Shown in pieces: positions 324 through 17,785 of a stretch of DNA of 43,807 bases. Source of the stretch: an uncultured Flavobacteriales bacterium (GTDB taxonomy: Bacteria > Bacteroidota > Bacteroidia > UBA10329); contig CALCGD010000149.1 of NCBI GenBank assembly GCA_937900875.1, positions 1 to 43,807 on the forward strand. Direction: 5' to 3'. Within the stretch, counting starts at the first letter, position 1, and each line of letters opens with the position of its first letter. The translations under genes were made by a program, and so were the position numbers. The notes beneath the pieces are model-generated. The model was not told the origin of the DNA. It saw only the letters and a program-made list of their open reading frames with translations, and ran no database searches.

Positions 324-366
324 GAAAGCCGTATTGTGGCGTTGGGAATACCAAATATGGGTTTTG

Positions 367-391
367 TAGAGACGCGATGCTTCGCGTCTCC
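367..391. repeat. GAGACGC-type palindrome (REP-like) 1
   Basis: A perfect 9-bp inverted repeat lies at 369-377 and 382-390 (GAGACGCGA / TCGCGTCTC) around a TGCT loop, preceded by TA. It is one of a family of palindromes clustered around the adjacent REP-associated transposase gene and is probably that enzyme's substrate family. Confidence 0.85.
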
Positions 392-400
392 TTAACATTG

Positions 401-421
401 ATACGCCAGCATGGCGTCTCA
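401..421. repeat. GAGACGC-type palindrome (REP-like) 2, partly decayed
   Basis: A 6-bp stem, ACGCCA (403-408) and TGGCGT (412-417), surrounds a GCA loop. The left outer arm is degenerate (GAT instead of GAG) and the right arm GTCTC is intact. It lies 34 bp upstream of the transposase start, so together with palindrome 1 it may form a paired element. Confidence 0.7.
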
Positions 422-454: not shown

Positions 455-1093
455 ATGACCGACAAATTCCGTAATAAATATCGTATTCCTCCTGCCCGCA
501 GACCTAGTTGGGATTACGCTTGGTCCGCCAATTATTTCATCACCATTTGCACCAAAGACAGGCACCATTTTTTCGGTAATGTTTTGAAGGGCGAAATGCA
601 ATTATCCGAAATAGGCCGAATCGTAGAATCAGAATGGTTGAAAACATCGGATATCCGTTCTGATATGAATATACATTTGGGAGCATTCGTTATTATGCCC
701 AATCATTTTCATGCTATTGTTACAATTGATGATAATGAATTTAATTCTGGTAGAGACGCCATGCTTGGCGTCTCAGTACCATCCGAAAACAGGATACCAG
801 AAGGAAGCGCTATTCCAGAAGGAGACACGAGGCCGCAAAGAGACGCCAAGCATGGCGTCTCTACGGATTTTAAAAATGCCTTTATTCCACAATCAAAAAA
901 CCTCTCATCAATTGTCCGTGGATTTAAATCTGCCGTTACGGTACAGGCACGATCTATGCGAGCAGATTTCGAATGGCAGACCAGATTTCACGACCATATT
1001 ATCCGTAATTCTAATTCGCATCAAATAATTGAATATTACATCCTGAACAACCCAATAAATTGGATGGAAGATGAATTGTTTTCGGTCACGTAG
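455..1093 (+). CDS. REP-associated tyrosine transposase (RAYT, Y1/IS200-like HUH nuclease)
   Basis: This 212-residue protein belongs to the Y1_Tnp family of single-strand DNA endonucleases that act on REP palindromes. The HUH motif is PNHFHAIV (H84 and H86). The C-terminal part has the FHDHIIRN stretch followed by IEYYILNNPINW (about 192-203), where a tyrosine is a candidate nucleophile, though I cannot assign it with certainty. Residues 99-137 are encoded by two complete GAGACGC palindromes and the DNA between them, in frame. Without them the protein would be about 173 residues, closer to my expectation for the family. The spacer encodes a small repeat (IPEGSA / IPEGDT). The TAG stop at 1091-1093 is the edge of the next palindrome. 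There is no second transposase or IS end, so this is probably a domesticated or in-trans REP mobiliser rather than a complete IS. The ATG start fits the usual N-terminus before the conserved YFITICTKDR segment. Confidence 0.9.
   Translation: MTDKFRNKYRIPPARRPSWDYAWSANYFITICTKDRHHFFGNVLKGEMQLSEIGRIVESEWLKTSDIRSDMNIHLGAFVIMPNHFHAIVTIDDNEFNSGRDAMLGVSVPSENRIPEGSAIPEGDTRPQRDAKHGVSTDFKNAFIPQSKNLSSIVRGFKSAVTVQARSMRADFEWQTRFHDHIIRNSNSHQIIEYYILNNPINWMEDELFSVT
753..774. repeat. REP-like palindrome 3, inside the transposase CDS
   Basis: A perfect 9-bp stem lies at 753-761 and 766-774 (GAGACGCCA / TGGCGTCTC) with loop TGCT. It lies wholly within the coding sequence and is translated as RDAMLGVS. Confidence 0.9.
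840..861. repeat. REP-like palindrome 4, inverted, inside the transposase CDS
   Basis: It has the same 9-bp stem as palindrome 3 (840-848 and 853-861), but the loop is AGCA, the reverse complement of TGCT. The element is therefore inverted relative to palindrome 3, giving a BIME-like pair with a 65-bp spacer. It is translated as RDAKHGVS. Confidence 0.9.
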
Positions 1094-1114
1094 AGACGCC
1101 ATGCTTTGCGTCTG
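1091..1114. repeat. REP-like palindrome 5, overlapping the transposase stop codon
   Basis: GAGACGCCA at 1093-1101, loop TGCT, and an imperfect right arm TTGCGTCT. The TA preceding the palindrome plus its first G forms the TAG stop of the transposase. Confidence 0.8.
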
Positions 1115-1126
1115 AATTCAATAAGG

Positions 1127-1180
1127 ATGCCAGCATGAAGAGACGCCAGCATGAAGAGACGCCAGCATGGCGACTCTACT
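1127..1180. repeat. 16-bp tandem repeat derived from a REP arm, ending in palindrome 6
   Basis: The unit ACGCCAGCATGAAGAG occurs at 1143-1158, with a near copy at 1127-1142 (first C is T). A third unit at 1159-1174 diverges into the closing arm TGGCGACTC. The final part, 1156-1176, is a complete but imperfect palindrome with one extra base in the right arm. Its edge supplies the stop codon of the minus-strand gene that ends at 1176. Confidence 0.75.
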
Positions 1181-16021: not shown

Positions 16022-17785
16022 ATGAGACAAACCATTCTTTTTATCGTCACTGCATTGTTTATTTCTTGCGGTGGTAGTAAGCCTCAAGTTACCGATTCAG
16101 GTTTCAAAGCATTTGAGGATAGATTCATCCTTGCATTTTGGAAGCAAAACCCAGGCTGGGCATCGTATGTGGGGTTCCACGACTACGATTCGTTGCTAGT
16201 GGTACCAAATGCAGAGAATAGATTGGCCGAAAATGAGTTTTGTCGTGCTTATTTGGATTCGTTGAAGCAGTTTTCTGGGAAAAACCTCACCAAAAGCGAA
16301 CTCACCGATTTAATGATGATTCGAGATCAGTTGGAATCATCTATTTGGTACAATGACGTTTTTAAAAGCTACGAATGGAACCCTGCCAGTTACAACCTTG
16401 GTGGGGCGTTTGGAATAATGATAAACGGGAAGTATGGGCCATTAGATGATCGGTTAAGAGCCATTTCTAGAAAAATGGATTTAGTGGAAGATTATTATGC
16501 CGCTGCTAAGGCCAATATTCTTAATCCAACTGCTCAGCACACCGATTTGGCTATTTCACAAAACCAAGGCGCACTCAGCGTTTTCGGGGCCTCTTTAATA
16601 GATAGTGTGCATGCTTCTGGGCTTTCAGATACCGAGAAAGAAAACCTCTTCACCAATATAGAATTAGCCAAAATGGCTATTGAAGATTACGTTGAGTTTC
16701 TTAAAAATGAGATTAAGCCAACGTTGGATGAGAATGCAAGAGATTTTAGAATTGGGAAAAATTTGTTCTCAGAAAAGTTTGAACGAGAAATAGTTTCTAG
16801 CTATTCTGCGGAAGAAATTTATGCTAAAGCGCTAGAAGCAAAGAGCAATTTGCACCGTGAGATGTTCACACTCACCAAAAAAATGTGGAAACAATATTTG
16901 GCTGGAACTGAAATACCATCAGATTCGCTTGTTGCCATAAGAATGATGATTGATAAACTATCGCTGGTGCATTGCCACCGAGATAGTTTTATGTCATCTA
17001 TTGAAGCTCAAATTCCTGAATTAACAGCCTTTGTAAATGAACATGACCTTGTTTTTCTCGATCCTGAAAAACCATTGGTAGTAAGACAAGAACCTGCTTA
17101 TATGGCGGGTGTTGCTGGGGCTTCTATTTCAGCCCCTGGTCCGTATGATAAGTATGGCGACACGTACTATAACGTGGGTACGCTGGTGAATTACACAGAC
17201 GAGCAAGCAGAATCTTTTCTAAGAGAGTACAATAAATACATGCTTCAAATATTGAATATTCATGAGGCAATTCCAGGACATTATGCTCAATTGGTATACA
17301 GCAATCAATCGCCAAGTTTGGTTAAAAGCGTGTTTGGAAATGGCGCTATGGTAGAGGGTTGGGCCGTTTACACAGAGAGAATGATGTTGGAGGAAGGATA
17401 CGGGAACAATTCGCCAGAAATGTGGTTGATGTACTACAAATGGAATTTGAGAACCACCTGTAACACTATTTTGGATTATTCAATTCACGTGAATGGAATG
17501 ACAGAGGAGCAGGCGCTAGATCTTCTCATTAACCAAGCGTTTCAGCAAGAAGCTGAAGCAAAAGGAAAATGGAGAAGAGCTACATTGTCTCAGGTTCAAT
17601 TGTGCAGTTATTTCACAGGGTTTACCGAAATTATGGACTTGAGAAACGAGATGAAAGCAAAGCAAGGAGATGCTTTCAGTTTAAAAGCGTTTCATGAGGA
17701 TTTTTTATCCTTTGGTTCGGCACCTGTTAAGTACGTTAGAGAGTTGATGATGAATGAAGAAGAATTAGCTCATAGCAAACCTTAA
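16022..17785 (+). CDS. DUF885 family lipoprotein, putative metallopeptidase
   Basis: This 587-residue protein has a lipoprotein signal (MRQTILFIVTALFISC, Cys16). The hallmark is HEAIPGHYAQLVY (about residues 417-429), the HExxPGH zinc motif of the DUF885 family, followed by EGWAVYTERMMLEEGYG, whose Glu is a likely third zinc ligand. Family members are thought to be zinc peptidases or carboxypeptidase-like enzymes of the cell envelope, and the natural substrate is unknown. The length is typical. It is first in a row of three genes with 9-bp gaps (DUF885, GNAT-like, LysE exporter). Release of amino acids by a peptidase followed by LysE-type export would be a simple link, but that is inference. 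Confidence 0.92.
   Translation: MRQTILFIVTALFISCGGSKPQVTDSGFKAFEDRFILAFWKQNPGWASYVGFHDYDSLLVVPNAENRLAENEFCRAYLDSLKQFSGKNLTKSELTDLMMIRDQLESSIWYNDVFKSYEWNPASYNLGGAFGIMINGKYGPLDDRLRAISRKMDLVEDYYAAAKANILNPTAQHTDLAISQNQGALSVFGASLIDSVHASGLSDTEKENLFTNIELAKMAIEDYVEFLKNEIKPTLDENARDFRIGKNLFSEKFEREIVSSYSAEEIYAKALEAKSNLHREMFTLTKKMWKQYLAGTEIPSDSLVAIRMMIDKLSLVHCHRDSFMSSIEAQIPELTAFVNEHDLVFLDPEKPLVVRQEPAYMAGVAGASISAPGPYDKYGDTYYNVGTLVNYTDEQAESFLREYNKYMLQILNIHEAIPGHYAQLVYSNQSPSLVKSVFGNGAMVEGWAVYTERMMLEEGYGNNSPEMWLMYYKWNLRTTCNTILDYSIHVNGMTEEQALDLLINQAFQQEAEAKGKWRRATLSQVQLCSYFTGFTEIMDLRNEMKAKQGDAFSLKAFHEDFLSFGSAPVKYVRELMMNEEELAHSKP

Follow-up and report, generated by a model that had tools for sequence, protein, structure and literature searches.

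An In-Frame Pair of REPs inside a RAYT Gene and Its Likeness to the REPs That Flank the Gene

Results

The RAYT gene and its REPs

The window, by which is meant the whole stretch of DNA analysed here (43,807 nucleotides from an uncultured Flavobacteriales bacterium), carries a gene that, by its motifs, encodes a REP-associated tyrosine transposase (RAYT, or TnpA_REP). REPs lie on both sides of the gene and also within it:

366..390, + strand: cognate upstream REP, GTAGAGACGCGATGCTTCGCGTCTC
400..420, + strand: degenerate second upstream REP (GATACGCCAGCATGGCGTCTC)
455..1093, + strand: RAYT / TnpA_REP gene, 212 aa, from the list of open reading frames
750..864, + strand: complete REPIN-like unit, 115 bp, in frame, within a predicted disordered loop
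750..774, + strand: first internal REP, with the GTAG foot facing outward at the 5' end
775..839, + strand: spacer between the internal REPs, 65 bp, translated
840..864, - strand: second internal REP, which reverse-complements the first exactly, with the CTAC foot facing outward at the 3' end
1090..1114, + strand: cognate downstream REP; the TAG stop codon of the RAYT gene (1091-1093) is part of its GTAG foot
1126..1179, + strand: partial-REP array of 16-bp tandem units GCCAGCATGAAGAGAC (2.6 copies at 1129-1169) with a terminal half-REP ending in CTAC
Protein: HUH motif H84-F-H86 and catalytic Tyr Y195 (Y---NP), from alignment with 4er8 and invariant residues; GTAG-binding residues W174, Q175, D180, H181 and R184, from the 4er8 alignment

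The frame 455-1093 is open and the gene otherwise intact despite the REPIN inside it. The features that define the RAYT class are found together, i.e., an HUH motif with a single Tyr in Y---NP, the residues for GTAG recognition, and flanking REPs with GTAG feet, and judged by these the gene is a RAYT / TnpA_REP (class 2 Y1 transposase). An earlier reading, made from the letters of the window and called the sequence-only reading below, had named the gene correctly and had also been right to take the palindromes for REP-type elements of its enzyme. Among 50 homologues, H84, Q175, R184 and Y195 are invariant, while H86, N199 and P200 are nearly so, and the catalytic context in the window protein is Y195-ILN-NP. 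The segment WQTRFHDHIIR (174-184) aligns with WQxRFxEHxIR of the Escherichia coli TnpA_REP (PDB 4ER8), and the spacing of W174, Q175, D180, H181 and R184 is that of W94, Q95, E100, H101 and R104, the GTAG-recognition residues in E. coli numbering (PMC6006769). Relative to E100, position 180 has changed from E to D, a replacement reported at this GTAG-binding position for subclasses 2.5 and 2.7 (PMC6006769).

The best-scoring profile families are the right ones, though both scores fall below their cut-offs: Pfam Y1_Tnp gives E 2.7e-4 (21.5 bits, curated cut-off 23), and NCBIfam NF047646 (REP-associated tyrosine transposase) gives E 6.6e-15 (55.3 bits, cut-off 80). This can be explained by the long linker, which splits the domain into two halves. 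When the model of the protein is used as a Foldseek query, 4er8 ranks first. The model itself (AlphaFold2, with 50 homologues as input) has a mean pLDDT of 81.7 and consists of an ordered core, with 95+ over most of its length, and a predicted disordered loop at residues about 92-149, with a pLDDT of about 50. The loop is preceded by the HUH strand (84-91) and followed by a helix (150-168); the wider linker, residues 90-149, amounts to 60 aa. The E. coli TnpA_REP shares the fold, the HUH and Tyr motifs and the GTAG-binding segment WQxRFxEHxIRN, but has 165 aa and no REP-encoded linker, and the aligned stretches are only about 20 residues apart there. In the 3.6-Mb draft genome (355 contigs) the window RAYT is the sole match to its own protein.

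Anatomy of the internal element

The internal REPs, of 25 nt each (GTAGAGACGCCATGCTTGGCGTCTC), are inverted and 100% complementary, with 65 nt between the arms and with the GTAG and CTAC feet pointing outward. Two inverted palindromes with a 65-bp spacer, placed after the HUH motif and before the C-terminal half of the protein and keeping the frame, had indeed been claimed in the sequence-only reading, and they are found in the linker 90-149. The element had been placed at 751-866, which has to be corrected to 750-864. Each REP is itself palindromic; the perfect 9-bp stem ascribed to both holds for the first (753-774, with a 4-nt loop), while the second has a stem of 10 bp (839-862). Within the single frame 455-1093 the two REPs are translated as RDAMLGVS and RDAKHGVS, respectively. 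A degenerate form of the REP palindrome occurs four times in the window, compared with 0.01 times expected from shuffling, and all four matches are at the RAYT gene: at 369-390 upstream, twice inside, and at 1093-1114 at the stop codon.

A REPIN consists of two inverted REPs with GTAG feet that point outward, is about 100 bp long, and can form a single hairpin. This anatomy is present here, with two inverted REPs and outward GTAG...CTAC ends over 115 bp. The sequence-only reading had suggested folding the message across 740-870; as RNA, this segment has a folding energy of -62.7 kcal/mol (z -8.6) and forms mainly one long hairpin in which REP pairs with REP, and this hairpin persists when the whole message is folded.

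Pattern searches in the draft genome gave about eight near REP matches, four of them at the RAYT gene, and did not find a dispersed multi-copy REPIN population; three other near-perfect copies appear intergenic. Since the REP family is this small, a high-copy population in the source genome is rejected, and the element 750-864 is a REPIN by anatomy and not a member of a REPIN population. A related REP form occurs in 0-36 copies in genomes of the same genus and in 123 copies in one more distant genome. In the latter (G119, contig C6 16299-16880), one REP, at 16652-16673, lies between two matched halves of a RAYT gene.

A TRF search for tandem repeats accounts only for the 16-bp partial-REP array (GCCAGCATGAAGAGAC x2.6); upstream of the RAYT gene, the region 60-360 contains many loosely similar GGTATT-containing segments that are not called as a tandem repeat. 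The stop codon is shared with the downstream REP foot at 1090-1093 of the window, and flanking REPs begin 2-3 nt past the last codon in at least nine further homologues (e.g., L040-L042, L060, L065, L080, L087, L100, L117).

Palindromes in homologous genes

Homologues were gathered from 148 related genomes and from a species-level collection, which gave 94 intact genes. The species-level collection was searched with six peptide patterns, one of which (PQRDAKHG) derives from the REP-encoded insert and constitutes a bias; the independent whole-genome search of the 148 related genomes gives the same result as the pattern-biased collection.

When synonymous codons are shuffled within each of the 94 genes, the expected number of palindromes with a stem of at least 9 is 3.6, while 66 are observed. 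Under the slightly looser definition used for their location, 92 of 108 palindromes fall within the linker between HUH strand and helix, which makes up 21% of the gene length, so the inserts recur at the same site, as an alignment proposed with the sequence-only reading was meant to ask. Of perfect palindromes, 92 are observed, and 0.27 are expected when synonymous codons for the same peptides are drawn freely. Inverted ends of the outward form GT[AG]G...C[CT]AC are found in 44 genes, with 0.9 expected. Palindrome density per kb is 1.15 inside the genes, 1.30 within the 300 bp next to them, and 0.13 beyond. Roughly two-thirds of the sampled genes retain a linker palindrome; 29 of the 94 (about 31%) are without a perfect one, and some of these have near-perfect ones or a REPIN with a longer loop (L043, L073, L078, L083).

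A REP with a GTAG foot is open in two of its three frames, which bears out the earlier suggestion that REP-like elements are translatable. Both open frames are in use across the homologues, where they yield the unrelated peptides VETxxxASL and RDAxxxVS, and from this follows that the peptide is not what the family conserves. A conserved linker peptide without palindromes had been named beforehand as the outcome that would count against the sequence-only reading; what is found is a peptide that varies between homologues and a self-complementarity that is kept. In the window's clade, two-sided stem changes occur at 4 of 11 pairs, and the covariation score is reached by none of 500 shuffles; the score can be inflated by relatedness, and it drops at least twofold when the pairing is slid by 1-3 columns. 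The internal palindromes are not coincidental. Coincidence at the level of the peptide is rejected by the two synonymous-codon nulls, and a single recent accident in the source genome is rejected by the internal REPs that homologues from many phyla carry.

Internal REPs resemble the REPs that flank the same gene

In 39 of 65 genes, the longest internal palindrome matches the gene's own flank at 85% or better. The corresponding rates are 3.2% for the flanks of other genes and 1.2% for 22-mers drawn at random from the gene itself. Between genes, likeness of the internal REPs goes with likeness of the flanking REPs also when protein distance is controlled for (partial Mantel r 0.57, reached in 0 of 2000 permutations), with the flanking palindromes found independently of the internal ones. 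When the own flank is compared with that of the nearest relative, the internal REP is closer to the former in 22 cases and to the latter in 12, with 8 ties, so that homogenisation is a trend and not a rule. Since internal REPs track the flanking ones, the specificity of a RAYT would be predictable from the gene alone, and each gene would thus hold a record of its enzyme's likely substrate.

Frame inheritance and size steps

Among the 39 genes whose internal REP has one clear frame, at least four changes of frame occur on the tree, compared with a shuffled mean of 11.7 (0 of 1000 shuffles as low). So few changes suggest that most internal REPs have been inherited and not randomly re-inserted. 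The tree was quickly built and many of its forks are weak, and the count therefore rests on broad clades.

The closest homologue is L039 from Adhaeribacter soli, with 64% identity over the tree columns. Like L010, L011 and L013, it has a double-foot REP of 28 bp at the site and in the frame of the window REPIN. The window REPIN, at 115 bp, is longer by 87 bp, i.e., 29 codons; the approximately 39 added residues of the sequence-only reading are close to the whole element, which corresponds to about 38 codons, and exceed what is extra relative to these one-palindrome relatives. The Labilibaculum-type genes L042, L041 and L040 carry one, two and three REP copies, respectively, with a 42-bp (14-aa) unit between. 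Linker length ranges from 7 to 119 aa across the homologues. Geobacter-type genes have REPINs with GTAGGGGC feet in the same loop, and in Roseofilum-type genes (L074, L075, L086) the linker is short and contains no REP. A clean empty-site homologue with matching flanks was not found among the homologues.

Discussion

In-frame REPs inside a RAYT gene are already known, and the window adds a further, well-anatomised case. Quentin et al. (2018) described REPs inserted in the TnpA_REP gene itself without disruption of the frame as a unique feature of subclass 2.4, located in a variable region at the periphery, between HuH and Y, and suggested that they have little impact on activity (PMC6006769); a claim that the phenomenon is categorically new is thereby rejected. 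Subclass 2.4, which that paper equates with RAYT group 4 of Bertels et al. (2017), is abundant in Bacteroidetes and Cyanobacteria (PMC6006769). The window has in common with it the in-frame REPs between strand beta3 (HuH) and helix alphaC, in a variable insertion (residues about 92-149, predicted disordered), the GTAG...CTAC double-foot REPs, the flanking REPs, and the W/Q/R residues that bind GTAG. Placed by these published features, the window RAYT probably belongs to subclass 2.4 / RAYT group 4. In the main text of PMC6006769 we found no two-REP form with codon-multiple steps, no codon null, no tree-based conservation of frame, and no matching of internal REPs with flanking ones. The paper does describe double-foot REPs, which could arise through central deletion of an inverted dimer (PMC6006769). 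The pair formed by the window and its homologues, with 115 and 28 bp in the same frame, fits this idea; the window sits among one-REP relatives, however, and expansion is therefore as likely as deletion.

Di Nocera et al. (2013; PMC3733652) described intragenic GTAG/CGTC REPs in other genes; these are in-frame monomers or dimers, may lie in loops or linkers, and add 20-30 aa. Their hosts are unrelated genes for repair and replication, whereas the host in the window encodes the REP enzyme itself. The Rickettsia palindromic elements (cited in PMC3733652) are likewise translated palindromic inserts in conserved proteins, but belong to another sequence family and have no tie to an enzyme's own gene.

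The explanation that we favour, with a probability of roughly two in three, is that an old REP insertion has been tolerated in a permissive loop, homogenised with the neighbouring REPs, and resized by in-frame duplication or deletion. Its starting points, i.e., the position of the element, the conservation of its frame, its resemblance to the flanks, palindromy beyond codon constraint, and size changes in multiples of a codon, can be read from the sequences as they stand. At an early time, a REP of the type that serves the enzyme as substrate would have inserted into the loop that connects the HUH strand to helix C. The insertion would have been tolerated because the loop is disordered, and the REP could remain open because, with a GTAG foot, it is translatable in two of three frames. 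It would then have been inherited in a constant frame, while its palindromy and its likeness to the flanking REPs were kept, probably via repeated replacement or conversion from that pool and perhaps aided by selection. The element would grow and shrink in whole codons, the window having the two-REP (REPIN) form and its closest homologues the one-REP, double-foot form. That the enzyme itself made the original insertion we infer, since the homologues yielded no clean empty site. Conversion presumably keeps the internal and flanking copies alike; more generally, the enzyme's own REP traffic or conversion may supply and refresh the internal copy, which the disordered loop renders harmless. The internal element would then be without an essential function in mRNA or protein. 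Against such a passenger role, long-lasting perfect stems could mean selection for function.

A function in cis is the strongest alternative, though it is an unlikely one. The internal REPIN would here be bound or cleaved by RAYT in single-stranded DNA of the enzyme's own gene, or its mRNA hairpin would throttle translation or stabilise the message, with autoregulation of copy number or expression as the result. The retention of a palindrome in the same loop across phyla, with two-sided stem changes, agrees with this, as does the RNA fold, dominated by one long hairpin with its z of -8.6. The window protein also has the residues that bind GTAG in the E. coli TnpA_REP (PMC6006769), so that the enzyme should recognise the internal element, and self-targeting or mRNA control is accordingly possible on the strength of these motifs. 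A perfect linker palindrome is, however, missing from 29 of the 94 homologues, stem length, copy number and frame all vary, and homogenisation with flanking REPs accounts for the same pattern without any function. About as unlikely is the broader proposal that group-4 RAYTs keep their own recognition element in the coding sequence as an obligatory cis element, either a self-target or an mRNA hairpin that links enzyme dose to REP specificity, so that the internal REP and the specificity of the enzyme evolve together as a built-in matched pair.

It is much less probable that the insert has been selected as protein, the REP-encoded residues forming a functional loop (e.g., for DNA contact or oligomerisation) and the palindrome being incidental. 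Within clades the frame is conserved, and some linker residues beside the insert, e.g., F-x-PQSKNL, recur in the clade of the window, but the two open frames encode unrelated peptides, the loop is predicted to be disordered, and if synonymous codons were chosen freely, 0.27 perfect palindromes would remain instead of 92. Chance palindromy, or an assembly artefact in a single metagenome bin, for which a draft in 355 contigs might leave room, has a negligible probability and is already refuted by the homologues, which show the same arrangement in independent genomes and isolates from many phyla; in the window, 0.01 palindromes are expected by chance.

The locus illustrates how a repeat can turn into coding sequence and yet remain a repeat, the same bases being retained as a peptide frame and as a palindrome. 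Should the element have a function, it would be a simple example of an enzyme whose target is encoded in its own gene.

Three individual homologues may be described in addition. In L015, a perfect REP palindrome (GAGACGCAATGCATTGCGTCTC, 1633-1654) is in frame at a second place, before HUH, and a degraded one lies in the usual loop. The RAYT linker of L047 (2947-3807) reaches 119 aa and consists of REP remnants and long low-complexity repeats rich in Asn, Ala, Asp and Ser. In L044 (3001-3561), a decayed REP occupies one frame of the linker and a near-intact one, beside it, the other, which looks like the arrival of a new copy next to an old one.
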